DNA from: Streptantibioticus cattleyicolor NRRL 8057 = DSM 46488
Lineage (GTDB): Bacteria > Actinomycetota > Actinomycetes > Streptomycetales > Streptomycetaceae
NCBI RefSeq assembly: GCF_000240165.1
Contig: NC_017585.1
Span: 744,001-808,000 of the forward strand
Reading direction: 5' to 3'
DNA length: 64,000 bases
How positions within the stretch are numbered: position 1 is the stretch's first letter; each line of letters starts with the position of its first letter. A program made the position numbers and the translations under genes. Of this stretch, positions 6,839-56,950 are shown piece after piece. The notes under the pieces are model-generated. The model saw only the letters and a program-made list of their open reading frames with translations, had not been told where the DNA came from and did not search any database.

Positions 6839-7423
6839 TCAGGCGCCCACCGTGCCGTCGATGCCTTCGCGCAGGAAGTCGGCGTGGCCGTTGTGGCGGG
6901 CGTATTCGAGCAGGACGTGGAGCATGACCATGCGCAAGGAGACCTCGGCGTCGTCCCAGCGGGGCTGGCGGCCGGTGATGTCGAGGGAGGCGGCGGCGCG
7001 TTCGATGCGGCGGGAGTGCTCGACCTCGGCCCGCCAGGCGGCGAAGGCTTCGGAGCGGGTGGAGTCCGCGCTGTCGTAGGCGGCTTGGAAGTCGCCCTCG
7101 TCGGACCAGACCAGCGGGACGTCCTCACCGTTGATCGCGCGGCGGAACCAGGCGCGTTCCACCTCGGCCATGTGGCGCACCAGGCCGAGCAGGGAGAGCG
7201 TGGAGGGCGGCATCGACCGGGTGCGCAGTTCCTCGTCGGTGAGGCCTTCGCACTTCATGGCGAGGGTGGCCCGGTGGAAGTCGAGGAAGGCGCGCAGCAT
7301 CTCGCGTTCGTCCGCGATGACGGGCGGGCCGATACGTTCGACACCGGCGCTTTCGTCGTCGGTGCGTTCTTCGGTGGTGCGTTCTTCGGTGGTGCGTTCT
7401 TCGGTGGTGCGTTGGGTGGTCAC
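6839..7423 (-). CDS. DinB/DUF664-type protein
   Basis: 194 residues. The segments REMLRAFLDFHRATLAMKCEGLTDEEL, LSLLGLVRHMAEVERAWFRRAI and MLHVLLEYARHNGHADFLREGIDG match DUF664, a branch of the DinB four-helix-bundle superfamily with a conserved metal-binding histidine triad (here the His of RHMAEVE and the two His of HNGHAD). Members are often thiol-dependent transferases or hydrolases; the substrate is unknown here. The N-terminus carries three perfect TTEER repeats, encoded by 15-bp tandem repeats. Confidence 0.85.
   Translation of the reverse strand: MTTQRTTEERTTEERTTEERTDDESAGVERIGPPVIADEREMLRAFLDFHRATLAMKCEGLTDEELRTRSMPPSTLSLLGLVRHMAEVERAWFRRAINGEDVPLVWSDEGDFQAAYDSADSTRSEAFAAWRAEVEHSRRIERAAASLDITGRQPRWDDAEVSLRMVMLHVLLEYARHNGHADFLREGIDGTVGA
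7366..7410. repeat. three perfect 15-bp tandem repeats in the DinB-like gene
   Basis: The unit gttcttcggtggtgc occurs three times head to tail at 7366, 7381 and 7396. It encodes repeated acidic/Thr pentapeptides at the N-terminus of the DUF664 protein, outside the conserved domain, so copy number changes would keep the frame. Confidence 0.9.
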
Positions 7424-38509: not shown

Positions 38510-38615
38510 GACGGGCATCCTCGTGCATGGCCGACGACCGCCGCGGCCGGGGGCCTCGTTCACCCGAACGGAGTAGCCGACGTACGGTGACGCGCGCCGC
38601 GTTGGTGCCGCCGTG

Positions 38616-39326
38616 TCAAAGGTGGAGCATCGGCGAGGCCGCCGCCGGGCATGGTTCTCCTGCGGCGCCGTCCTCCTCGCCGCAGCCGCGGTCGCCGCCG
38701 CCCGGGCCGGAGCGCGCCCGGGCGAGCAGCGCCTCGGTCTCCGGCCGGGCCTGGAGCGACGGCAGCAGCAGCCGCCACAGATCGGCGAGGCGGTCCTCGA
38801 TCGCGTCCCGGCCGTCGAGCGCGTCGGAGACGGTGTGCAGTCCGAAGAAGGCGCACACGATGCCGTGCGCGGCGCTCGCCGGCTCGATGTGCGCCGCCAG
38901 TTCCCCCTGCTCCCGCGCCCGGCGCAACGCGCGCCGCACCACGTCCACCCAGCCGACGAACGGCACCGGCAGCGGGGCGTCGATGGCCTTGCGCTCGGCC
39001 CACAGCCGGGATCCGGCGCTGACCACGATGTCGTCCCGGAACGCCCGGGCCACCTCGAAGCTCAGCCCGACCAGCCGGTCCAGGGCGGGCCGGCCGGTGG
39101 TGGCCGCGTACCGCTCCACCAGCGCGGGCCAGGTGGCGAAGTGCGCCTCGACGATGGCCAGGGCGAGGTTCTCCTTGTTGCCGTAGTGGAAGTAGATGGC
39201 GCCGCTGGTGCGTCCGCTACGCTCGCTGATGTCACTGATGCTGGTGCCCGCGTACCCTCGTTCGTTGAACAGTTCCGCCGCCGCCAGCAGTACGGCCCTG
39301 CGTGTGGTCTCCGCCCGCTCCTGCAC
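38616..39326 (-). CDS. gamma-butyrolactone receptor-like TetR regulator (ArpA/ScbR type)
   Basis: 236 residues. The HTH segment RRAVLLAAAELFNERGYAGTSISDISERSGRTSGAIYFHYGNKENLALAIVEAHF is very close to ArpA/ScbR/BarA-type receptors, which bind gamma-butyrolactone signals and release DNA. It is divergent from an afsA homologue with a 111-bp gap, the classical arrangement of a receptor next to the gene for signal synthesis. The C-terminal 30 residues are low-complexity. Confidence 0.9.
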   Translation of the reverse strand: MQERAETTRRAVLLAAAELFNERGYAGTSISDISERSGRTSGAIYFHYGNKENLALAIVEAHFATWPALVERYAATTGRPALDRLVGLSFEVARAFRDDIVVSAGSRLWAERKAIDAPLPVPFVGWVDVVRRALRRAREQGELAAHIEPASAAHGIVCAFFGLHTVSDALDGRDAIEDRLADLWRLLLPSLQARPETEALLARARSGPGGGDRGCGEEDGAAGEPCPAAASPMLHL

Positions 39327-39437
39327 CTGTCTCCCCGCTTGCTCGGTGTTCCGCCTGAATGGGGGAATCTAGCGGTTCGGCACGCCTTCGCCGGGTGTGC
39401 GCATGCATGTCGGACCAAGTTGATATCTCCTGTTCGT

Positions 39438-40649
39438 ATGGATGGCCGCAACGGCATCGCGCAGGCGCCGCTGAGCTGGTCCCGGACGGTCGCGCGGGAA
39501 CTGGTGCACCGGGTCTCGGTGGCGGAGGTGCTCCTGACCGACGTACGGGCGCTGGGCGGGGACCGGTTCGTCGCGGCGGCGCAGTGGCCGCGTTCCCATC
39601 CGACGTTCACCCGCGGCGCGGACGACCTGCACAGCCCGTTGCTGCTGGTGGAAACGGTGCGGCAGCTCGGCATCTACATCCCGCTGCTGCACTACTCCGT
39701 GCCGTCCGACGCCCACTTCGTCATCCGGGACGTCGCCTTCGAACTCGACCCGGAGGCGGAGCCGCGGGCCGGTTACGGCGCCACCGAGATCACCTGTGCC
39801 GTGACGGTCCGCGCGCTGCGCCCGATGGCGCCCGCGACGGCGCCCGGCGCATCCGCCGGAGCGCGTACGACGGCGAACACACCGACGGAGGCACGCGGAC
39901 ACACCATGGCGCGCGGAACACTCCGCGCTCCGGAGCGCACCCCCTCACCCGGGCGCGCACACCCCGTCCCGGGCAACGGCGCACACCCCGCCACCCCGCC
40001 CCTGGCCGCGCTCCGGATGCAGGTACGGTTCCAGGCCGGGAACCGTACCTTCGCCCGCGCGGACGGCGGCGCCCGATTCATCGACCCCGAGCGTTACCGC
40101 GAGATGCGCCGCTTCTCCGCCCCCGCACACCAAGTGGACCCAGCCTCCCGGCGGCTGGCCTCCGCGCACCGGCTCTCCCCCGCCCCCGACCGCCACCACG
40201 GCCCCGGCCACCCCGCCTCCCCGGCCGCCCACACCACGCACCGGGTACGCCGTGCCGTGCTGCGCGAGAGCGTGCTGCAGAACCACGCCCGCCCCTCCCC
40301 CGACCTGGTCGGCGTGGCCACCCCGCACGACGTGATGCTGGCGTTCACCGGCGCCGACGGCGGGCTGCGGGTGGATCCGGCGGACGCCCGGCACCCGTTC
40401 TTCTTCGACCACGGCAGCGACCACGTGCCCGGGATGGCGCTGCTGGAGGCGGGGCGCCAGGCGGTCGCGGTACGCAGCAACGGGCTGCTGCGGCGGCCGG
40501 TGGCGGGGCGGATGCGGGCGCTGCGGTTCACCGAGTCCGACCCGGCCGCGCTGGTGGAGACCGGGTTGCGCGGCCCCCGTTCCCTGTTCCGGATCCGGCA
40601 GGGTGGCGTGGTCACGGTGATCGGCACCCTGCGGTACGCGTCGCGCTGA
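39438..40649 (+). CDS. AfsA-family gamma-butyrolactone synthase homologue
   Basis: 403 residues from the ATG at 39438. Two AfsA hot-dog repeats are seen: residues 20-128 (ELVHRVSVAEVLLTDVRALGGDRFVAAAQWPRSHPTF and LLLVETVRQLGIYIPLLHYSVP) and residues 270-403 (DARHPFFFDHGSDHVPGMALLEAGRQAVA). AfsA condenses dihydroxyacetone phosphate with a beta-ketoacyl-ACP in A-factor-type signal synthesis. The protein is about 100 residues longer than usual. Residues 129-189 are a Pro/Ala/Thr-rich insertion in the middle of the first repeat, with a second loose stretch at about 225-260. The divergent receptor gene should control it. Confidence 0.9.
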   Translation: MDGRNGIAQAPLSWSRTVARELVHRVSVAEVLLTDVRALGGDRFVAAAQWPRSHPTFTRGADDLHSPLLLVETVRQLGIYIPLLHYSVPSDAHFVIRDVAFELDPEAEPRAGYGATEITCAVTVRALRPMAPATAPGASAGARTTANTPTEARGHTMARGTLRAPERTPSPGRAHPVPGNGAHPATPPLAALRMQVRFQAGNRTFARADGGARFIDPERYREMRRFSAPAHQVDPASRRLASAHRLSPAPDRHHGPGHPASPAAHTTHRVRRAVLRESVLQNHARPSPDLVGVATPHDVMLAFTGADGGLRVDPADARHPFFFDHGSDHVPGMALLEAGRQAVAVRSNGLLRRPVAGRMRALRFTESDPAALVETGLRGPRSLFRIRQGGVVTVIGTLRYASR

Positions 40650-43746: not shown

Positions 43747-46479
43747 TCACCGCGCCGAGGCGGCCGGACGCCCGGCACGCAGCGCCGCCCGGACCCGGTC
43801 CGCCTGGCGGGCGTAACGGTCGGGCTCGGACGCGTCCGTGGCCGTGGCGGCGCGCTGTGCGGTGATCCGCGCCTCCAGCAGGTGGCGGGCGGTACGGGAC
43901 CGGGCGGCGTCGGCCTGCCGCTGGGCTTCGGCGAGCGCCTGCGCCCGGCGTACCCCGGGGGCGCGCAGGGCGGTCTCGTACGCCCGGCGGGCCTCCGCTT
44001 CCGCCTCCGGCGCGCGGGCCAGCAGCGCCAGCGCCGTCCGGCGGTACTCCGCCGCGGCCAGCTCCGCGGTGAGCCGCGCCTGGACGGCGAGCCCTTCCGG
44101 GGTGCCGCCGGCCGCGGCCATCGCGGCGCATTCGCGCTCGATGCGGGCGCGCAGGTTGGCCTCGGTCAACTCGGCGGTACGCCGCCCGGCCGCGCTGTCG
44201 CCCGGCTCGGTGGAGGCCGCCACGACCAGGGCGACGGCCCGTTCCACCACCGCGTGCACCGCGCGGCGCCCGGTGCACGCCGCACACCGGCCCGCCGACC
44301 GTTCGGCGCCGCAGTCCGCGCAGGCGAGCGCCTGCCGGGCCCGTTCGGCGGCCTCGGCCTCCGCCCTGCGCCGCGCCGCCTCCGCCTCACGCGCCGCCCG
44401 CCGCCGAAGGTCCTGCTCCCGGCGTACGGCGGCCTGCCGCGCGTCCTGCCGGGTACGGGCGGCCAGGCGGCGTTCGGTCTCGGCGCGGCGCTCCGGCTCG
44501 GGGGCGTGCGCCATGCCCGCGGTGACCTCCTCGGCGACCACGCGCCGTAGCGTGCGCCGGTCGGCGACCCGCAGCGCGCAAGCCGGGCACGTCGCGCCGG
44601 TGTCCATGCGCACCCCGTCGTCGCACCGGACGTCCCCGCATGCGCCCCGACGCGGCAGCCCGCGCCCCAGCAGCCACCCCACCGGGTCCGCCACCGCCTG
44701 GGGCCCGCCCTGCTCGCACAGCCGCCGGGTCAGCCGCTCGGCCAGCATCCGCGCGGCCGGATCCACCCCGGTCACCCCCGCGATCCGGGCCAGCTCGTCC
44801 CGCGCCGCCCGGGCCACCCGGATCCGGGCCCCCGCCCGGTCCAGCCGCGCCCACACCGCCGCCACCGGCGCCAGCGCCTCCCGCAGATCCCTCGGCGGCG
44901 CCGACACCGCGAAAGCGGCCAGCGGATCGGCGCCACGCGAGCGTTCGGCACGGGCGGCGGGGATCTGTGGCCGTTCCCCGCGCAGCGGGCGTCCGGCACC
45001 ACGCCGGACGGAACGCTTCCCGACGGGCTTGACCCCGGCGGCACGGGCCCCCTCGCGCGCATCCGCGCGCTCCGGCCGACCACCGGACCCCCGACCGGCT
45101 ACGCCGGAAAAGCGGGAACGAACGGTGACATGTGGCGAAACCTGGGTTGGTGAAGGGTGGTTGGGGTGAAGTGGGACAGCAGCGGGGTGCTCTGGAACCT
45201 CGCTGTCCGAATGCTGTGAGACCACCCCGATCCCATGGGCGGTACGGGTTCCGTCGGCCCCCTCCGCACCGGGTCCCCCGGGTGCAGCAGCGGGGCTGCG
45301 GAGTTCGGCACGGTCGGCGAGGTCGTCGAAGGACGCCTGCGCCCAGCCGTCGCCCGCCAACTCCCCGTTCTCCTCGGCCTGATGAGCTTCCTGAGCGCCA
45401 TCGGGACCACCGTCGTGACCGTGACGGCAGCAGTCGCAGAGGATCACCCGATCGGGGGAGGGCTGCGTTTCCTCCTCGTTGACGGAGGAGACCTCGGAGG
45501 CCGGGAACATCTCGTCGAACTCGTCGTCGTCCTCGAACGGTTCGTCCCACGAGGACTCGTCCGCCGAACCGTCGCCGCTCCGCCCGTTGGCCGCCGCGAC
45601 CGCGGGGACCACCAGCCGGGTCTTGCCGAAGAGCCCGGAACTGGTCTTCACCGGCACGGTGACGACGGCCTCCAGCCGCTTGAGCCGGGCCAGCACCTTG
45701 CTGCCGCCGGAGATCGAACACCCCAGGGCCCGGGCCACCGTCGCCGCCGCGCGCCCCCGTCCGTCCGGCAGCGAGCCGCCCACCAGCCGCACCCGCCCGT
45801 CCGAGCCGGCCTGGAGCACCAGCAGCAGCAGCGCGAGCCGGTCCGTGGCCGCCCCCCTCCCCCGCTGCCCCGCCAGCAGCCCGGCGGGCGTCGCGCCCTT
45901 GCCCCACCCCGGTGCGAACAGCGCCTCCAACAGGCGCAGCAACGTGACCAGTTCCTTCTTGGACAGCGCCAGCGGATGGCCGACGTCACCACGGCGCCGG
46001 GCCTGCCACAACGGCATGACCACGCACTCCAGCCCGGTGGTACGCCCGGAATCCGTCCTGGTGGTACGCCGGGTCACCGCCCGGGACTCCTTGAGGGAGG
46101 GCAGCACGGTGTGGTCGACCATCGACTCCGACATCCCGATCCAGCGCCCGAGTTCACCGGCGCGGATACGGGTGCGGCAGGTCCGGTGATCGGCCTTGGC
46201 CATCAGCACCACGGCACTGAGCCGGGCCGCATCCGTCAACCCGACGAGCGGCTGTTCATCCAGCAGGGTCCGTACGGCGGTGTAGAGGCGCCGACGCATC
46301 CCGGGCCCGAGGTGCAACGGATCCCCAGGACCCCGCATCGGAGCGGGTCCGGCCTGGTCAGCGGCGGTACGAGCACGCTGCCGGGGAGCACGGGAACGGG
46401 GTGGACGGACGGTCGCAGGCGCGTCGTCTGCGGTGGGTGGGGTCGACTCCGGTGGCGCGCCATCACCTGTTTGAGGCAA
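43747..46479 (-). CDS. candidate plasmid replication initiator: tandem winged-helix and zinc-ribbon protein
   Basis: 910 residues. Residues about 75-160 (LTDAARLSAVVLMAKADH, then LGRWIGMSESMVDHTVLPSLKESRAV) and about 205-295 (DRLALLLLVLQAGSD, then VARALGCSISGGSKVLARLKRLEAVV) look like two winged-helix modules, the architecture of many plasmid initiators. After an acidic linker, residues 614-634 form a zinc ribbon (C-X4-C-X11-C-X2-C), then an Arg/Glu/Ala-rich coiled coil (about 660-720), a second zinc ribbon at 720-735 (C-X2-C-X8-C-X2-C) and a helical tail. No helicase or primase motif is seen. The initiator role is inferred from architecture and from the adjacent partition loci and repeats; a large transcription regulator is the alternative. 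Confidence 0.6.
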   Translation of the reverse strand: MPQTGDGAPPESTPPTADDAPATVRPPRSRAPRQRARTAADQAGPAPMRGPGDPLHLGPGMRRRLYTAVRTLLDEQPLVGLTDAARLSAVVLMAKADHRTCRTRIRAGELGRWIGMSESMVDHTVLPSLKESRAVTRRTTRTDSGRTTGLECVVMPLWQARRRGDVGHPLALSKKELVTLLRLLEALFAPGWGKGATPAGLLAGQRGRGAATDRLALLLLVLQAGSDGRVRLVGGSLPDGRGRAAATVARALGCSISGGSKVLARLKRLEAVVTVPVKTSSGLFGKTRLVVPAVAAANGRSGDGSADESSWDEPFEDDDEFDEMFPASEVSSVNEEETQPSPDRVILCDCCRHGHDGGPDGAQEAHQAEENGELAGDGWAQASFDDLADRAELRSPAAAPGGPGAEGADGTRTAHGIGVVSQHSDSEVPEHPAAVPLHPNHPSPTQVSPHVTVRSRFSGVAGRGSGGRPERADAREGARAAGVKPVGKRSVRRGAGRPLRGERPQIPAARAERSRGADPLAAFAVSAPPRDLREALAPVAAVWARLDRAGARIRVARAARDELARIAGVTGVDPAARMLAERLTRRLCEQGGPQAVADPVGWLLGRGLPRRGACGDVRCDDGVRMDTGATCPACALRVADRRTLRRVVAEEVTAGMAHAPEPERRAETERRLAARTRQDARQAAVRREQDLRRRAAREAEAARRRAEAEAAERARQALACADCGAERSAGRCAACTGRRAVHAVVERAVALVVAASTEPGDSAAGRRTAELTEANLRARIERECAAMAAAGGTPEGLAVQARLTAELAAAEYRRTALALLARAPEAEAEARRAYETALRAPGVRRAQALAEAQRQADAARSRTARHLLEARITAQRAATATDASEPDRYARQADRVRAALRAGRPAASAR

Positions 46480-46851: not shown

Positions 46852-47325
46852 TCAGGCCGCAGACTTGGGGTTCTGCGGACGACGGCGGCGGTGCTTGAGA
46901 TTCGCTATGGCGTCCGGAAGCTCGGAGACCCACAACCCGACCGGGATCCTGAAGGCCACCCGTCCACCGAGGTGCTCCAGATCGAAGGCGGCCCGCTTCG
47001 CCGGGGTGGTGACCAGGTGGACGGAGTCCTCCAGCACCCACAGCGCCGTGTCCGGCGTGGTGTTGGGGTCCGAGGCCGCCTCCCGGGCGGCCTCCACCGC
47101 GCTGGACTGCCACAGCTCCAGCTCCTGGCGTGCGCTGCGCGGCCGGCGTACCCCGGGCCAGACGATCTGGGACACGAACGCATAGACGCGCAGCGCCACC
47201 ACGGAGTCCTCGAAATGCGGCTCGTAGAGGACGCCCTGGTCGCGCGCCTTCCAAGCCCACGACTCGCTCAGACCGGCCGCGATGGCGACGGCGCTGGTGC
47301 TGAGTTGATTGCTGGTCAGCGACAT
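46852..47325 (-). CDS. small protein with N-terminal HTH-like region, unknown
   Basis: 157 residues from the ATG at 47325. The N-terminal stretch LSTSAVAIAAGLSESWAWKARDQGVLYEP resembles a MerR-like or other helix-turn-helix start. The middle has RRPRSARQELELWQSSAVEAAREAASDP and the C-terminus is basic (KHRRRRPQNPKSAA). It was not recognised as a named family. Its position, directly downstream of a phased iteron array and between partition and initiator-like genes, suggests a replicon maintenance role such as copy control. Confidence 0.65.
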   Translation of the reverse strand: MSLTSNQLSTSAVAIAAGLSESWAWKARDQGVLYEPHFEDSVVALRVYAFVSQIVWPGVRRPRSARQELELWQSSAVEAAREAASDPNTTPDTALWVLEDSVHLVTTPAKRAAFDLEHLGGRVAFRIPVGLWVSELPDAIANLKHRRRRPQNPKSAA

Positions 47326-47497
47326 GGTTTCGCATCTCCGATGAGCAAGGTGTCGATCGTGATGCACACCATAGCGCAAATTGGCCGAGCGTTTCTTGGG
47401 TCACTAGACGTTCGGCGTGTCATTTCCGCCGCAACGTTTCTGCGAACGCCCGATTTCTAGGGGTTGTTGACGCGAAGTTCGTGCCTTCGTTAGGTCG

Positions 47498-47509
47498 CAC
47501 GCTCTAGTG
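47498..47509. promoter_or_regulatory. CACRCTCTAGTG motif, copy 1
   Basis: CACGCTCTAGTG, 173 bases upstream of the 157-aa gene. The same 12-mer with one change occurs upstream of parA1 (50165-50176). On the minus strand both read CACTAGAGYGTG, containing a -10-like TAGAGY. It is either a shared promoter element or a common operator. Confidence 0.45.
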
Positions 47510-47579
47510 TCGCAGAGATCGTGAGATCGCTCGAATGCTCGTCAGTTTGTGTGCGTGTTCGTGCTGGTGTTGGTTCTAG

Positions 47580-47663
47580 CGTTGCAACAACCGTTGTAGT
47601 TGGTGTTGTAGTAAGCGTTGCAGATGGCGTTGTATGGAACGTTGTAGAGGGCGTTGCAGCCGT
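47580..47663. repeat. array of seven 12-bp-phased GTTGYA iterons (array 1)
   Basis: The hexamer GTTGCA or GTTGTA begins at 47581, 47593, 47605, 47617, 47629, 47641 and 47653, exactly 12 bp apart each time, mostly preceded by C. The bases between hexamers are not conserved. A degenerate eighth unit precedes at 47568. Constant 12-bp phasing with a conserved hexamer indicates cooperative protein binding, as at plasmid centromeres or iteron origins. It lies between the end of parB1 and the 157-aa gene. Confidence 0.92.
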
Positions 47664-47687: not shown

Positions 47688-47743
47688 ACGGGTGGGGCGG
47701 GTGGTTCCGGCGTCGATGTGCCGGAACCACCCGCCCCACCCGT
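47688..47743 (-). terminator. intrinsic terminator of the parA1-parB1 operon
   Basis: A perfect 24-bp inverted repeat (arms 47688-47711 and 47720-47743, 8-base loop). On the minus strand the stem is followed directly by TTTTT, making a textbook rho-independent terminator 72 bases after the parB1 stop. Confidence 0.95.
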
Positions 47744-47814: not shown

Positions 47815-49137
47815 TCAGGTGCCCGTACCGGGCCCCGCCTTGCGGACGCGTTGCGGTCGCTGGAGCGGACCCTCCTCGTCCATCGCCTGGAGGAAGCGTT
47901 CGATGACGGCCGAGACCACAGAGGTGCCCCGCCGCCCGAACCCGGCTTCCTGCAAAGCCAGGTTGAGACTGGAGATGAAGGCGAGCACCTGCTCCCCCAC
48001 CCGGTACGTCGACGGCTGGGTCCGTTCCAGGTCCCACATCCGGTCGTCCTCGAAGGCCCGCGCCATGGCGATCTGCTCTTCGATGTCCTCCGGCACGTGA
48101 CGCAGCGCGGCATCCACGTAATGCCCCAGCGCCAGCCCGGAGTTGCCGGTGGTACGGCGATCCGCGTTCACCCGGTTCTTCAGCGCGGCCAGGACGTCCG
48201 GCGCGATCCGGAAGCCGTACCCCTGCCAACGCGTCGGATGCATCTTGGCGTCCGCGTAACTGGCGAACACCGCGGCATGGGCCCAGGACTGCCCCGGCCC
48301 ACCACGGCCGGCGCCGCCGGAACCACTCCTGGCGGACGGACTCGGCGCGACGGAGTGGGAGGGCGCGGATGCCGAAGCCGTCGGCGCGGCCGTGCCGGGG
48401 ACGGAATCGTCCCGGCGGGGTGCCGGTGCCGAGGCACCGTTGCGCTTGGCGGACTCCTTCGGACCGGTGTCCTTGCTCAGGTGCTTCGCGTTGGTGGACG
48501 TGTCGGTGTCGGTGTCGGTGTCGGTGTCCGCGTGGTCCGCGGTGTCGGCCGTGACGTTGTTCCGCTGAGCCGGTTCCGCGGTATCGGTCCGGGGCCTGCG
48601 CGGACGCGGCGCCGTCGTGGCACCGGGTGCGGGTACGCCGAGGCGGGCCGCCGGGTTCGGTGCTGCGGAGGCGGGCGCGGCCTGCGACAAGGGCGCGTCG
48701 TCGTACGTCGGCGGAGGCTGCGACGCGGGTACCGGTCTCGCCGCGGTGGCGGGGGGCGGCACAGGGGCGTCGTGCTCGTCGGCGGGGACGACGGTGTCGG
48801 ACACGGGGTTCGGCCTGGGCGTGACCGGCGCGGGTGACTCGGGCGCCGGGACCTGGCTTTCGTCACCCGGGATCGTCGTGGCATCGGTCGTCGGCCCGGT
48901 GGGGACCGGCGCTGACGGCGGCGGCCCCGCGGGGTCGTCGGCGACCGGCCGCGGAGCGGTGGGTACGGTGCCACCGCCGCCGAGGAACGAACGGCTGGCC
49001 ACGTCATCGGCACCGGCGATGAGACCCTGTACGAGAGCGGAGCCGGTGGGTTTGAAGTGGTTGGGGGCTCGCTTCTTCGCCTTGCCGGTCGCCTTGCCGC
49101 CCTGCCGTGAGCTGGACGGAGAGGACTTGTCGGTCAC
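47815..49137 (-). CDS. ParB-like centromere-binding protein with two tandem RHH-like modules (parB1)
   Basis: 440 residues. The start overlaps the parA1 stop (ATGA), so the two are co-translated. Residues 1-290 are disordered, Pro/Ala/Thr-rich, with a TD-dipeptide run near residue 205-220 and a basic N-terminus KGKAKKRAPNHFK-like region that could stimulate ParA ATPase. The C-terminus holds two beta-alpha-alpha units: about 307-350 (YGFRIAPDVLAALKNRV to GHYVDAALRHV) and about 376-420 (STYRVGEQVLAFISSLNLAL to TSVVSAVIERFLQAM). Both fit ribbon-helix-helix folds. No canonical ParB/Spo0J domain is present. This resembles type Ib partition partners but with two RHH modules in one chain. Fold assignment is by eye. 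Confidence 0.7.
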   Translation of the reverse strand: MTDKSSPSSSRQGGKATGKAKKRAPNHFKPTGSALVQGLIAGADDVASRSFLGGGGTVPTAPRPVADDPAGPPPSAPVPTGPTTDATTIPGDESQVPAPESPAPVTPRPNPVSDTVVPADEHDAPVPPPATAARPVPASQPPPTYDDAPLSQAAPASAAPNPAARLGVPAPGATTAPRPRRPRTDTAEPAQRNNVTADTADHADTDTDTDTDTSTNAKHLSKDTGPKESAKRNGASAPAPRRDDSVPGTAAPTASASAPSHSVAPSPSARSGSGGAGRGGPGQSWAHAAVFASYADAKMHPTRWQGYGFRIAPDVLAALKNRVNADRRTTGNSGLALGHYVDAALRHVPEDIEEQIAMARAFEDDRMWDLERTQPSTYRVGEQVLAFISSLNLALQEAGFGRRGTSVVSAVIERFLQAMDEEGPLQRPQRVRKAGPGTGT

Positions 49138-50015
49138 CGGAGGCCCTCACCGTCGATACGGTCCGGCGTCTCCCACTTCTGCGGAGGCTGCTCCATACGC
49201 CCGAGGATCTGCCACATCAGCTCGCCGTACATCTTGCCCGGAGGGTGGCTGGCGAAGCGGAGCACCGAGGGAACCCCGTGCGCGAACGAGTCGCTGATGC
49301 GCTCGTCACGGCGGATGTCGGTGAGGAAGGGCGCCAGCTTGGCGTCGAGCATGCCGTTGCGGATGTTGACCTCTTGGGCCTTCCACTTCGACGGCGGGTT
49401 GGAACGGTTGAGCACGGCCCCCAGGTACTGCGGGTCGCACTCGCCCCCCGTACGGTCCTTCACATAGCTGACCGTGCCTCGGGTGGCCACGGCGCCCTTG
49501 AGCGCGGGGTATTCGGGCACACAGACGGTGATCACATAGTCGCCGGCGGCGAGGGCGGTGGCGGAGAGGGAGGAGACCGCGGGCGGAGTGTCGATGAGGA
49601 CGTAGTCGAAGTGGTCCTGGAGTTCAAGGAGCATGCGCCGCAGGACCGGGGTCGACTGATACCCCTTCTTATGGATGAGGTCCTGCGCGGCCGTCATCGT
49701 CGATTCCTCGGAAGCCAGCAGGTGGAGGGTGCCCGCGTCCTCCCAATCGGCGAGGAGATCGCTGCGGTCGTACCAGATGCTCTCCAGCGGCATCCGCATC
49801 CCCTGGAGACGAGCCTGGAGAACCCAGCCCAAAGAGCGGGCGAGCTGGTCCTCTCCTGCTAGGTTGACCCCGAGCGCCGTGCCCGCTTGTGCCTGGGGAT
49901 CCAGGTCGACAACGAGGACGCGCGCTCCCCCGAGGGTCAGCGCGGCAGCTAGGTTGACCGTGGTGCTGGTCTTGCCGACCCCTCCCTTCTGCGTTGCGAC
50001 CGCGATGACTCTCAT
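49134..50015 (-). CDS. parA: ParA-family partition ATPase (parA1)
   Basis: 293 residues from the ATG at 50015. The deviant Walker A is QKGGVGKTSTTVNLAAAL, Walker A' is VLVVDLDPQAQAGTALGV, and Walker B is FDYVLIDTPPAVSSL. It has no N-terminal HTH, so it is of the small type Ib/chromosomal kind and would not repress its own promoter by itself. It forms a coupled operon with parB1. The ATG at 50015 follows GGAGAGGGG; seven further residues are possible upstream. Confidence 0.95.
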   Translation of the reverse strand: MRVIAVATQKGGVGKTSTTVNLAAALTLGGARVLVVDLDPQAQAGTALGVNLAGEDQLARSLGWVLQARLQGMRMPLESIWYDRSDLLADWEDAGTLHLLASEESTMTAAQDLIHKKGYQSTPVLRRMLLELQDHFDYVLIDTPPAVSSLSATALAAGDYVITVCVPEYPALKGAVATRGTVSYVKDRTGGECDPQYLGAVLNRSNPPSKWKAQEVNIRNGMLDAKLAPFLTDIRRDERISDSFAHGVPSVLRFASHPPGKMYGELMWQILGRMEQPPQKWETPDRIDGEGLR

Positions 50016-50164
50016 CGCCTGTTCGCCCCTCTCCACTCAAGTCAGTTGCCAGCGCGAAGCGCGTGTCACCAGGGCATGAACCAGGGCAATTCCCCGAGCC
50101 AAGCCGGAGGAAACGGGCCGTTTGGCCGCTTCGTCCTCTCTCGGCGCCGCGGAACCTTCCCCTC

Positions 50165-50176
50165 CACACTCTAGTG
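50165..50176. promoter_or_regulatory. CACRCTCTAGTG motif, copy 2 (parA1 promoter region)
   Basis: CACACTCTAGTG, 150 bases upstream of parA1, matching the copy at 47498-47509 at 11 of 12 positions. Flanking bases are also similar (GTGACACGGGATC against GTGTCGCAGAGATC). It is a candidate promoter or operator shared by the two minus-strand genes. Confidence 0.45.
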
Positions 50177-50299
50177 ACACGGGATCTTCGCGCATGACCA
50201 TAACAGGGTTGACGCCGGCGGGAGGCAAGACGCGCGGCATTGCGACACGCGAACCGAGCTGACTCTCCCCCAGCCCGCCCCCGGGTCTTTGTCAGGAGG

Positions 50300-51130
50300 G
50301 GGTGCGCGCGGGCGTGGCTTGGTTGCTTGGGAGGAGGGTTGGCGGGGCGGGCTGGTGGGTGGGGTCGTGGGTTCGTGGGTCGTGGGTTAGTGGGGTCATG
50401 GGTTGGGTTCGGTTGGTTTGGGCGGGTGTGAGGGGTGGATGCGTGGGTGGGTGTGCTGAGTGGGGGTGCGCGTCCGGCGCCTTTGGTGAGGCCAATGTCG
50501 TTGTGGGTGCGGCTGGGGTGAGTGCTGGCGGGGCGGAGTGGTCGGAGGGGCCGGCTTCGATCCGGGTTGCGGTCGGGCGGATGGGGTGGGTGGTTCGAAG
50601 TGAGGTCTGGCTGAGGCGCGGGGGCGACGGTGAGCGCGGGGTGGGTTCGCTGATGGCGTGATCGAGGGTTGGGTGGTCCGATCGTGTGCGCGGTGGTGCG
50701 GTGGTGCGGTGGTGCGGTGGTGCGGTGGTCCGTGGGTGGGTTCGGCGGTTGGACCGGGGGTGGGTTCGGACGTGGGTGGGTGCGTTGGATCGGTGGGTGG
50801 AGTGTGGGTGGGTGCGTGAGCGCGTGGGTGTGTTGGACCGGTGGTTCGGCGGTTCGGCGGTTCGATCGTGGGTTGGTGAGTTGGGGTGTGAGTTTGCGGG
50901 TTGGTGGGTGTGCGGGGTTGTTCGTTCGGTGGTTTGGGCGTTCGCGGGTGGGATGGTGTGTGGGTGCGTTGGACGGATCGTTCGTGTGGTGGGTAGTGCG
51001 TTGGTTCGGTGGTGCGTGTGTTGGCTGGAGTGTGGGTTAGCGCGAGCGATCGTTAGTTGGTTCGTTTGTTTGCGGGAGCGTAAGTGAGAGTGTTGGTTTT
51101 GTTGTTTGGTGTGGCGTAAGTTTCGTCGTT
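50300..51130. other. gene-free, strongly G+T-biased segment
   Basis: About 830 bases in which the plus strand is almost only G and T. In 50341-50400 there are 7 C and 2 A in 60 bases; in 50701-50760 there are 9 C and 1 A. It is made of irregular repeats such as GTGGTGCG and GTGGGTTCG, including four GTGGTGCG-like units in a row near 50695-50730. No reading frame looks like a real protein. It lies between parA1 and iteron array 2 and may be an origin-associated or R-loop-prone region. Confidence 0.8.
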
Positions 51131-51131
51131 C

Positions 51132-51424
51132 GTTGCAGCGTTGCAGGTTACGTAGTTGTAGTCGTAGCTCATTGCGTTGTATTGGTCGTTGTGCTTTCCG
51201 TTGCTATTTACGTTGCAGCCATCGTTGTGTCTCTCGTTGCAGGCGCGGAGGCTCGGCGGCCGTCCTGTTGTTGTAGCTTTCGTTGCATCCATCGTTGCAG
51301 CGATTAATGCTGGGCTGTCGGCGCGGAGCGTGCGGTGCTGTGTTGGGCGGTCGGGCCGCTCCAGGTTTGTAGCTGGCAGAGGCTCATCGTTGTACCCTTC
51401 GTTGCAGCGAGTGTTGTATGCCCA
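51132..51424. repeat. second GTTGYA iteron region (array 2), several 12-bp-phased blocks
   Basis: GTTGCA/GTTGTA or one-mismatch forms begin at 51176, 51188, 51200, 51212, 51224 and 51236 (12-bp steps). Further blocks are at 51270, 51282 and 51294, and at 51389, 51401 and 51413. Extra hexamers are at 51132, 51140 and 51155. Blocks are out of phase with each other. Same motif and same 12-bp spacing as array 1 on the other side of parA1-parB1. Confidence 0.9.
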
Positions 51425-51703: not shown

Positions 51704-52015
51704 GTGCCAGCACCACGTAAGTACCCCGATGAACTCCGCGAGCGCGCCGTCCGCGAGGTCCGCTCGACCGGCCGCCCAGTGACGCATGTCGCCCGCGACC
51801 TCGGCATCCACAAGGAGGCCCTGCGGTCATGGGTTCGCCAGGCCGAGGCCGACGCCGGCGAGCGCGACGACCGCCTGACCAGCTCCGAGCTGGAGGAGCT
51901 GAAGCAACTCCGGAAAGAGAATGCCGAGTTGAGGCGGGCCAACGAGATTCTCAAGGCCGCCAGCGTGTTTTTTGCCCAGGAGATCGACCGTCCCCGGACG
52001 AGGCCGAGCAGGTGA
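51704..52015 (+). CDS. IS3-family transposase OrfA
   Basis: 103 residues. The HTH (YPDELRERAVREVRSTGRPVTHVARDLGIHKEALRSWVRQ) and the leucine-zipper-like helix (LEELKQLRKENAELRRANEILKAASVFFA) are typical of IS3 OrfA. A T6 run at 51968-51973 lies in the overlap. A -1 slip there joins OrfA to OrfB and yields the full OrfAB transposase. Confidence 0.95.
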   Translation: MPAPRKYPDELRERAVREVRSTGRPVTHVARDLGIHKEALRSWVRQAEADAGERDDRLTSSELEELKQLRKENAELRRANEILKAASVFFAQEIDRPRTRPSR

Positions 52016-52896
52016 TCGACCACCTGCGAGACAAGGGCCTCGGGGTCGATCCCGTCTGCCGGGTGCTGGGCTTGTCTCCCTCGACGTACTTCGCGCGCAA
52101 GACGCGACCGAAGTCCGCCCGCCGGTTGCGTGATGAAGAGCTGATTCCGCTGGTCACAGCCGCGTGGGAGGACTCCGGCCGCACCTACGGCGCCCGCCGG
52201 GTCACCCGCGCGCTGGTCCGCGCCGGCCACGCGGTGGCCCGCTGCACGGTCGAGCGGCTGATGCGGGAGCTCGGGATCGAGGGCGTCATCCGCGGGCAAC
52301 GTCGTCGCACCACGGTCCCCGAGCCGACCGCGCCGCGTCCGCCGGATCTGGTCAACCGGCGGTTCACCGCCGAGCGGCCGAACCAGCTGTGGTTGGCGGA
52401 CCTGACCTACATCCGCACGTGGTCGGGCTGGGTCTACGTGGCGTTCGTCCTGGACGCGTACTCCCGCCGGATCGTGGGCTGGCAGGCCGCCACCCACATG
52501 CGCACGGACCTGCCGCTGGACGCACTGGAGATGGCGCTGTGGCGGCAGCAGATCAAGAAGGACGCCGGCCTCATTCATCACAGCGACCGCGGGTCGCAAT
52601 ACGTGTCCATTCGCTATACGGAGCGATTGGCCGAGGCCGGCGCCTCCGCGTCCGTGGGCTCCGTCGCCGATTCGTACGACAACGCGATGGCCGAGGCCTT
52701 GAATGGCACATTCAAGGCCGAACTGATCGAGCATCAGGGCCCGTGGCGGGACTTCGACGAAGTCGAGCGGGCCGTCTTCCAGTGGGTCGCGTGGTACAAC
52801 GGTGAACGACTCCACTCCGCCCTCGGCTACCTGCCACCCGACGAGTACGAACAGGCGTACTGGGCGAGACCGGAGCAAGTCCCACAGACCGCTTGA
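52012..52896 (+). CDS. IS3-family transposase OrfB (DDE integrase domain)
   Basis: 294 residues from the GTG at 52012; the natural product is likely the OrfAB frameshift fusion. An N-terminal HTH_21 region (DEELIPLVTAAWEDSGRTYGARRV) is followed by the integrase core with QLWLADLTYIRTW (first Asp), HHSDRGSQYVSI (second Asp) and DNAMAEALNGTFKAELI (Glu). All three catalytic residues are present. Confidence 0.95.
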   Translation: MIDHLRDKGLGVDPVCRVLGLSPSTYFARKTRPKSARRLRDEELIPLVTAAWEDSGRTYGARRVTRALVRAGHAVARCTVERLMRELGIEGVIRGQRRRTTVPEPTAPRPPDLVNRRFTAERPNQLWLADLTYIRTWSGWVYVAFVLDAYSRRIVGWQAATHMRTDLPLDALEMALWRQQIKKDAGLIHHSDRGSQYVSIRYTERLAEAGASASVGSVADSYDNAMAEALNGTFKAELIEHQGPWRDFDEVERAVFQWVAWYNGERLHSALGYLPPDEYEQAYWARPEQVPQTA

Positions 52897-55046: not shown

Positions 55047-56237
55047 CTATTCGTCCAACGCGTCGATCAGCGCCTCTGCCAACGCCTGCGACTCCTCACG
55101 ATCCAGCACCTCCAGGATCGCCTTGGCGAACGCCGGGATGTCATGCCAATCGGCCATGGTCAGCGCCGCCCCCCGCCGCTCGCGCTGCGCCGGCACCTCT
55201 GCCGCCACGTCGTCGTACGGCTCACCTTGCTCGTCCTCGCCGCACTGCTCGAACTCCTCGGCCCTTGGCGACTGCGCCGCCGTCCCCGTGGCCGCGCCGG
55301 AATCCGCCCACTCCCCGACACTCGCCGACGACCTCATGACGCCCTCACTCATAACCGGGTTATAGGTCGCCGAGTCGTCCTGCCCCATAACCGGGTTATA
55401 AATCGGGGCTTCTCCGTGGGTCCCCTGCGTTCCCGGTCGCTGCTGAACGGAACGGTAAGCGGCCAGCGTCGCCATGGCCATGTCGCTGCTATGCGCATGC
55501 TCGTCCTCGGGAACCGAGGGGGCAACAGCCAGCGCGGGCGTCACGGGCTCCGGGGGCGTCGGCGGTTCCAGGCTGCGCTGGTACGCGTCGACCTGGTCCT
55601 CGGTCGGCATGCGGGCGAAGGCGCGAGCGTCCTTCACCCCGAGTACGCCGGTGACGACGAGTTCCTGAAGCTCCGGTACGAGCTTGCGCAGCAGGAGCAT
55701 CTGGGAGATGTACGGCTGCGTGCGGCCGATCGCCTTGGCGACCTTCGCCTGCGACAGGCCCTTGCCGATCGGCGGCTTCTCCGTCAGCCGGTACAGCGCT
55801 TCGGCCTGCTGGATGGGGTTGAGATTCTGCCGCAGCCCGTTCTCGGCGAGAGCCCAGAGCAGCGGATCACGTGCGCCGGCGTCATCGATGAACCCCGGCA
55901 CGTCCGTCCGCTTGGCGATCCTCGCCGCGTGGACCCGGCGGTGGCCGGCGAGCAGAACGTACTTGGCGTCGGCGATGACGGCCCGGTGCTCGGGGTGGTG
56001 CCTCAGAAACGCTTCCGCGTTGCATACGGAGATCGGGCTCGTCACGCCGATCTCCGAAATGCTCTCGACGAGGCTGCGGAACTCATCGTCGCTCTCGTCG
56101 ATCTCGCCGCGCGGGTTCTCCGGATTGTCGGTGATCTCGGCGAGGGGAAGGTGGACGTCGGACTTGGGCGGCGCTTCGGTCGCCTCCTCCAGCGGCTCGC
56201 CGTCGAGCATGTCGGCGAGATTGACGCGGCGGCTCAC
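55047..56237 (-). CDS. parB: ParB/Spo0J-family partition protein (parB2)
   Basis: 396 residues from a GTG whose bases overlap the parA2 stop (GTGA). The N-terminal ParB domain includes LPLAEITDNPENPRGEID, SISEIGVTSPISV and KYVLLAGHRRVHAARIAKRTDVP (the GERR-type box, here GHRR). The HTH follows: LSQAKVAKAIGRTQPYISQMLLLRKLVPELQELVV. The C-terminal 150 residues are acidic and end in a short helix that may dimerise. Residues about 280-284 and 292-296 are both YNPVM, encoded by two copies of the 13-bp palindrome thought to be its own binding site. Confidence 0.93.
   Translation of the reverse strand: MSRRVNLADMLDGEPLEEATEAPPKSDVHLPLAEITDNPENPRGEIDESDDEFRSLVESISEIGVTSPISVCNAEAFLRHHPEHRAVIADAKYVLLAGHRRVHAARIAKRTDVPGFIDDAGARDPLLWALAENGLRQNLNPIQQAEALYRLTEKPPIGKGLSQAKVAKAIGRTQPYISQMLLLRKLVPELQELVVTGVLGVKDARAFARMPTEDQVDAYQRSLEPPTPPEPVTPALAVAPSVPEDEHAHSSDMAMATLAAYRSVQQRPGTQGTHGEAPIYNPVMGQDDSATYNPVMSEGVMRSSASVGEWADSGAATGTAAQSPRAEEFEQCGEDEQGEPYDDVAAEVPAQRERRGAALTMADWHDIPAFAKAILEVLDREESQALAEALIDALDE
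55351..55363. repeat. ParB2-type palindrome, site 2 (inside parB2)
   Basis: ATAACCGGGTTAT, central G. Read on the minus strand in frame it encodes YNPVM of ParB2. Confidence 0.92.
55387..55399. repeat. ParB2-type palindrome, site 3 (inside parB2)
   Basis: ATAACCGGGTTAT, central G, 36 bp from site 2 (12 codons), encoding the second YNPVM in the same frame. Confidence 0.92.
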
Positions 56238-56950
56238 TGCGAAGCTCCGTTCAGCGCGATCTCCAGCGCCAGCTTGTCGAAGTCCTGGCGTCCCTGCAGC
56301 GCGACCCGGTTGGCCGGGTACTGGGTGACGACGACACCCTCGGCGGACGCCCGGGCATGCAGCTTGTAGTGGCGGATCACCGTACGGGCCAGGTGACCGC
56401 AGCTCTTCTCCACGAACTCCTGCGTCTGCTTCAGGTCCACGTCCCCGTCGCGCGGATCCCAGTTGTTGATGACCACGGTGTACGGCAACTTCCGCGGTTC
56501 GACCACCCGCTTGATGGTCCGCAGGGTCGGCTTGAAGCCGAGAGGCTCGGGCTCGATCGGCAGGATCACGGAGTCCGCGTTGTCGAGCACGGCCCGCAGG
56601 ATCTCCGCGGCCCTGCCGTCCCCGAGCGGATCCGCTGACGAGTCGTCCTCTGACAGGTCCAGCCAACCCGGGGTGTCCACGAAGATGTGACGCACCCCCT
56701 TGACCTTGCTCAGCCGATTCAGACCGTCGAGGTCCTTGTGGGCCTGAGTGAAGAGGAACGGGAGTTCATCGCCCACGCGATCGGCCCACCAGGAGGTGGA
56801 GCCCTGCGGGTCGACCGAGACGGCGAGGACCGACGGGGTGCCGTCCGGCTGGGTGCCGATTGCTTCGGCGGTCACGGCGGCGAGATTCACGGTCAGCGTG
56901 GACTTGCCCACGCCGCCCTTCTGGTTCAGGACAACATGCACGTGTGCCAT
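56234..56950 (-). CDS. parA: ParA-family partition ATPase (parA2)
   Basis: 238 residues. Walker A is NQKGGVGKSTLTVNLAAV, the A' Asp is in LAVSVDPQGSTSWW, and Walker B is VRHIFVDTPGWLDL. It lacks an N-terminal DNA-binding domain. Only distantly similar to parA1. It forms a translationally coupled operon with parB2, whose promoter region carries the most extended copy of the 13-bp palindrome, consistent with autoregulation by ParB2. Confidence 0.94.
   Translation of the reverse strand: MAHVHVVLNQKGGVGKSTLTVNLAAVTAEAIGTQPDGTPSVLAVSVDPQGSTSWWADRVGDELPFLFTQAHKDLDGLNRLSKVKGVRHIFVDTPGWLDLSEDDSSADPLGDGRAAEILRAVLDNADSVILPIEPEPLGFKPTLRTIKRVVEPRKLPYTVVINNWDPRDGDVDLKQTQEFVEKSCGHLARTVIRHYKLHARASAEGVVVTQYPANRVALQGRQDFDKLALEIALNGASQ

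Follow-up and report, generated by a model that had tools for sequence, protein, structure and literature searches.

Phased 12-bp arrays and a 4-bp lattice around a parAB operon of a linear Streptantibioticus cattleyicolor megaplasmid: a probable centromere

What purpose is served by seven evenly spaced hexamers that lie beside a partition operon on the linear megaplasmid (1.8 Mb) of Streptantibioticus cattleyicolor, and which protein reads them? The hexamers, GTTGYA, were recognized in a stretch of 64,000 nucleotides (the window, to which all coordinates refer), at a locus near the middle of the plasmid, and the initial annotation offered two readings, a new class of centromere or an iteron origin for a nearby 910-aa protein. 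The reported hexamer starts (47581, 47593, 47605, 47617, 47629, 47641 and 47653) are confirmed, all on the plus strand and exactly 12 bp apart. Chance phasing, which that annotation had thought implausible, is a very poor explanation, with 10 GTTGYA pairs at 12-bp spacing found in the window vs. 0.01 expected from shuffles. Markov-2 resampling of the gap gave a maximum of 3 hexamers per register (≥4 in 0 of 20,000 resamples), compared with the 7 observed. Taken by column, the repeat unit is (C/T)GTTG(C/T)A plus unconstrained bases. A scan of the whole 8.1-Mb genome finds runs of three hexamers at 12-bp steps nowhere but in this array (array 1) and in a second array zone. Array 1 and its immediate surroundings comprise:

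47517-47561, plus strand: twelve Gs at exact 4-bp steps, leading into array 1 and in register with its hexamers
47581-47658, plus strand: array 1, the seven GTTGYA hexamers, exactly phased with a 12-bp step
47688-47743, strand not assigned: perfect 24-bp hairpin that separates array 1 from the parB stop and probably terminates parAB

Several relatives have hairpins at the position equivalent to the last of these features.

Array 1 belongs to a larger element that also includes the lead-in Gs, a lattice of phased Gs and a second array, the latter two located beyond parA:

50652-51096, plus strand: 4-bp lattice, a G at each fourth base, 112 times with zero exceptions
51091-51246, plus strand: array 2, 13 consecutive 12-mers, each CGTTGYA-like and beginning YGT, sharing the register of the lattice
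51270-51299, plus strand: array 2b, a hexamer triplet at 12-bp steps
51389-51418, plus strand: array 2c, a hexamer triplet at 12-bp steps

The run of 112 consecutive Gs compares with ≤18 in Markov-1 resamples, and 4-bp Fourier power reaches 34.8 at 50701-51100 vs. ≤6.6 at unrelated window positions. The interval from parA to array 2 is G/T-rich with a strong skew, and the lattice is non-repetitive (92% of its 12-mers are distinct). The lattice shares its mod-4 register with the hexamer cluster that comes first in array 2, and four additional GTTGYA pairs at 12-bp spacing lie at 51270-51418, within the second array zone. An IS3-type transposase gene (HTH_21, rve; 51829-52896, plus strand) is present just past array 2; transposases are also found upstream of parA in three related loci (L009, L010, L024).

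All genes of the module (parA, parB, x175 and x910) are on the minus strand, with array 1 following parB and the hairpin:

43747-46479, minus strand: x910, a 910-aa protein, replication-protein candidate
46852-47325, minus strand: x175, predicted MerR-type winged-helix protein, 157 aa from ATG or 175 aa from TTG
47400-47408, plus strand: operator-like GTCACTAGA, upstream of the 157-aa gene (x175)
47502-47513, plus strand: operator-like CTCTAGTGTCGC, upstream of the same gene
47815-49137, minus strand: parB, 440 aa, with a long low-complexity N-terminal part and a predicted C-terminal tandem-RHH domain (about aa 285-430)
49134-50036, minus strand: parA, a 300-aa Walker ATPase (AAA_31 match from residue 8; KGGVGKT motif)
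50170-50180, plus strand: operator-like TCTAGTGACAC, about 140 bp upstream of parA

ParA has no N-terminal DNA-binding extension. Searches of Pfam and NCBIfam gave no match for ParB, x175 or x910; in particular, neither the ParB_N CTPase nor the HTH_ParB domain was found by Pfam in the 440-aa ParB, while both occur in the neighbouring parB2. A search restricted to the chromosomal-type parS (GTTTCACGTGAAAC) found none in the window at ≤3 mismatches. An AlphaFold model of the ParB domain, based on ten aligned relatives, contains two RHH units in one chain (order H-E-H-H-H-E-H-H; pLDDT 88). Among PDB structures it most closely resembles F TraY chains (Foldseek prob 0.97), with Z 7.1-7.6 (VIA) and rmsd 3.7-3.9 over about 100 residues, although a TraY match at Z < 8 can mean a common arrangement only. 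DndE and VirC2 rank lower; we did not accept kinship to VirC2 (2rh3, VIA Z 2.4) or 6oaw (Z 4.8). ParB is thus predicted to be an RHH DNA-binding protein with two RHH units per chain. The x175 model (pLDDT 81) is MerR-type, matching CvkR at Z 9.7 over 124 residues and several MerR proteins at Z 5-6.7, with RacA and phage Xis among the further matches; the ATG start (157 aa) is conserved in relatives. The x175 and parA promoters have in common a clade-specific operator whose core is TGACA or TGTCA.

Other features of the window include a second partition operon, of the HTH/CTPase type (55047-56950, minus strand), about 5 kb from the RHH-type parAB:

55047-56666, minus strand: parB2 (ParB_N + HTH_ParB)
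56234-56950, minus strand: parA2

An HTH-type ParB gene likewise lies close to the RHH-type genes in four related loci (L009, L010, L011, L012), and therefore dual type-I systems recur. An AfsA (A-factor biosynthesis) hotdog-domain protein is encoded at 38613-40649 (plus strand), and a perfect 15-bp tandem repeat, GGTGCGTTCTTCGGT, is present in 3.5 copies at 7361-7413. An almost perfect 15-bp tandem repeat also occurs in the parB linker of NBC_00073 (L015:5509-5928), where it encodes PAAEA repeats.

The parA-parB-MerR-like gene set is found on dozens of Streptomycetaceae replicons. Relatives of ParB occur in 37 plasmid records and in 21 of 395 Streptomycetaceae genomes (8 of 17 genera), whereas a 395-genome sample of the class yielded just one genome from beyond the family; viral contigs searched with ParB and x175 contained no relative. 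For comparison, about 50 parAB loci were oriented. The initial annotation had suggested looking for the phasing beside parA on other plasmids, and the 12-bp period does recur there; GTTGYA itself, identical at both array places, is a property of close relatives, and other loci carry different motifs. Across loci the motif drifts (CGTTGYA, ATCGGTA, ATCCCTACRG; ATCCCTACRGRS in pFRL3 and pSCL3, ATCGGTA in NBC_01431) with both places and the 12-bp period kept. Exact hexamer searches consequently failed to recover the homologous arrays of pFRL3, pFRL6, pSCL3 and others, for which period analysis is needed. A conserved class defined by GTTGYA is therefore too narrow; what is kept is the 12-bp period, the 4-bp lattice and their placement.

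Summed autocorrelation over 36 non-redundant parB-x175 gaps has peaks at lags 12 (z 18.8), 24 (z 14.2) and 36 (z 12.6). In the 900 bp upstream of parA (37 loci), peaks occur solely at multiples of 4 (z 19-26), and at 900-1600 bp upstream (37 loci) they are at lags 12 (z 20.8) and 24 (z 21.3). The arrays, and the conservation of their place and period, are results of the computation, as are the shared operators and the predicted tandem-RHH fold. In 35 of 44 loci, Fourier power at 4 bp is above 10 in the region upstream of parA, and the longest exact runs of Gs at 4-bp steps number 181 (L023), 75 (L011) and 51 (L066); the longest seen is upstream of parA on a Streptomyces globisporus plasmid (L023, NZ_CP108665.1). 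The lattice is absent from three loci (L022, L050, L063) despite the presence of ParA and ParB. Runs of ≥25 Gs at 4-bp steps occur in 227 of the 395 Streptomycetaceae genomes, mostly as G-rich tandem repeats, and a lattice-first search (25 Gs, 4-bp steps) was dropped as a locus finder for this lack of specificity. The G-every-4 repeats that we inspected elsewhere are short, have far weaker 4-bp power and are not beside a tandem-RHH parAB; six inspected matches had no ParB relative. Given how widespread short 4-bp-phased repeats are in these genomes, we claim a special status solely for the long, non-repetitive lattice found with parAB.

The same 12-bp spacing beside the same partition genes on dozens of giant linear plasmids indicates that the arrays are probably a centromere ‘handle’, by which an undescribed kind of segregation machine probably grips these linear plasmids. 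We consider it fairly probable that the two 12-bp arrays and the 4-bp lattice together form the centromere of a type-I (ParA) partition system, coated by the single-chain tandem-RHH ParB. The earlier proposal of a centromere beside the partition operon is thereby supported, based on the conservation of position and period with parA-parB, the predicted RHH domain and the independence of the arrays from x910. Counting against this reading are the HTH-type parAB only 5 kb away and the loci in which ParA and ParB come with no lattice. We infer the identity of the array-binding protein, its stoichiometry and the segregation function from these comparisons. Having two RHH units in one chain, one ParB molecule would bind one asymmetric site in a fixed orientation, and successive molecules would stack head to tail along the direct repeats, with one molecule for every 12 bp. 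Unlike a homodimer, a single-chain pseudo-dimer is directional, which could explain why asymmetric hexamers are arranged in head-to-tail repeats. The lattice would provide many weaker in-register ParB sites, and therefore a long ParB coat around parAB. ParA, via the long N-terminal part of ParB, would then move the coated plasmid over the nucleoid, and the MerR-like x175 probably represses parAB and its own gene through TCTAGTGACAC-type operators.

The strongest competing explanation is that x175 binds the 12-bp arrays head to tail, in the manner of Xis- or BldC-type relatives on direct repeats, as a regulator or a second centromere protein. The resemblance of its model to MerR-type proteins, including RacA and phage Xis, is consistent with this role, and the parB-x175-gap array sits upstream of the x175 gene and occurs only where x175 is present. 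We retain this explanation, although as an unlikely one, since that array is missing from all 10 loci without x175. Loci that share both the x175 recognition segment and the operator (the window vs. L011 and L075) nevertheless have different array motifs, and the separate short operator common to the x175 and parA promoters suits x175 better. Once x175 is controlled for, array-zone similarity tracks ParB identity (partial r 0.118, p 0.01, a weak correlation uncorrected for phylogeny), compared with a partial r of 0.003 (p 0.44) for x175 given ParB. Furthermore, most Embleya-type loci (four of six), all of which lack x175, still have the lattice.

Less probable again is the iteron origin of the initial annotation, in which the 910-aa protein would bind the arrays as replication iterons and the locus would be the plasmid origin. 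Relatives of x910 are indeed widespread on Streptomyces linear plasmids (189 plasmid records), the locus is near the plasmid middle, and a central origin has reportedly been published for the S. cattleyicolor plasmid (Li et al. 2022, Microbiol Res 257:126975), a work that may have described some of the element before. Nevertheless, the arrays follow parAB and not x910. The gap adjacent to x910 (x175-x910) has no autocorrelation peak at 12, loci with no detectable x910 relative (L060, L064-L069, L075) keep arrays or lattice, and L087 encodes a 910-aa relative with a different ParA and no array; no DnaA-box cluster was found near the arrays. An origin by slippage, with the arrays as simple repeats that have no function, is highly improbable: 4-bp-phased tandem repeats are common in Streptomycetaceae, but dozens of loci have the same two positions and period with different motifs, and the lattice runs through 112 steps without exception despite its largely distinct 12-mers.

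If ParB does read the arrays, the consequences extend to very large replicons. A 2026 survey that used similarity-based detection reported RHH-type systems to be enriched on plasmids <50 kb, with HTH-type systems only above 1 Mb and about half of plasmids without a recognized system (PMC13245405). A tandem-RHH ParB family, invisible to Pfam, would put a ParA/tandem-RHH system on linear replicons of up to several Mb. On the secondary chromosome of Embleya, parA was found near dnaN and parB was not found (PMC13152386). In each of the three Embleya genomes that we checked, a tandem-RHH ParB gene is located 6-9 kb from a dnaN copy, making it a candidate for the missing parB. Five Embleya or Embleya-like loci (L016, L055, L056, L059, L062) encode ParA with a tandem-RHH ParB, and Embleya-type loci, which have neither x175 nor x910, keep the lattice in 4 of 6 cases. 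Our broader proposal is a tentative one, which we hold to be somewhat less probable than not: that a non-repetitive lattice with G at every fourth base and in-register 12-bp arrays, read by a single-chain tandem-RHH ParB coating several hundred bp, constitute a new centromere class on replicons ranging from 0.2 to 5.7 Mb, among them the second chromosome of Embleya. The lattice raises a sharp, easily tested question, namely how one protein would read a 4-bp register.

Several features of the locus are those of type-Ib systems: a ParA-family Walker ATPase lacking the N-terminal extension, a short-repeat array beside the operon and, by prediction only (pLDDT 88, TraY best match), an RHH DNA-binding domain in the ParA partner. 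The small homodimeric one-RHH ParB of that type is replaced by a 440-aa protein with two predicted RHH units per chain. The ParB_N CTPase and HTH_ParB domains of HTH/CTPase ParABS systems are lacking, the association and adjacency of array and putative initiator gene (x910) expected of an iteron origin are not observed, and x175 is predicted to have the winged-helix N-terminal domain of MerR-type proteins. The pBtoxis TubZRC centromere consists of seven 12-bp direct repeats, although its motor is tubulin-like and its TubR is a winged-helix protein, in place of ParA and a predicted RHH protein. VirC1/VirC2 of Ti plasmids likewise pair a ParA-like ATPase with an RHH-fold partner (the VirC2 2rh3 match to our model is weak, Z 2.4), but function in T-DNA transfer rather than partition, and are not known to have comparable arrays. 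SCP1, a Streptomyces linear plasmid, has dual type-I partition systems (ParABS1/2), which differ in using HTH/CTPase ParBs and inverted parS sites of 13 and 19 bp (PMC13245405). F TraY, like the predicted ParB, has an RHH dimer fold in one chain, and three monomers line up on DNA, two of them as direct repeats (PMC12117103); this relaxosome protein differs in serving conjugation without a ParA, at three sites only. Known type-I systems with RHH ParBs bind arrays of short repeats (PMC9499535, PMC7308502), and by analogy the S. cattleyicolor system may work alike. In pSM19035, ParA acts with an RHH centromere protein (omega/ParB) on contiguous short repeats (PMC9499535); these are 7-bp heptads bound by a small homodimer, whereas the S. 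cattleyicolor locus has a register of 12 bp and 4 bp and a 440-aa ParB predicted to carry both RHH units in a single chain. TP228 ParF-ParG-parH combines a ParA-type motor with a centromere of degenerate tetramer boxes and spacers (PMC7308502), but ParG is a small homodimer, and neither >100 in-register tetramers nor separate 12-bp arrays are described there. The S. cattleyicolor system thus departs from type-I RHH systems in lacking a small homodimeric ParB and in its new combination of 12-bp and 4-bp register.
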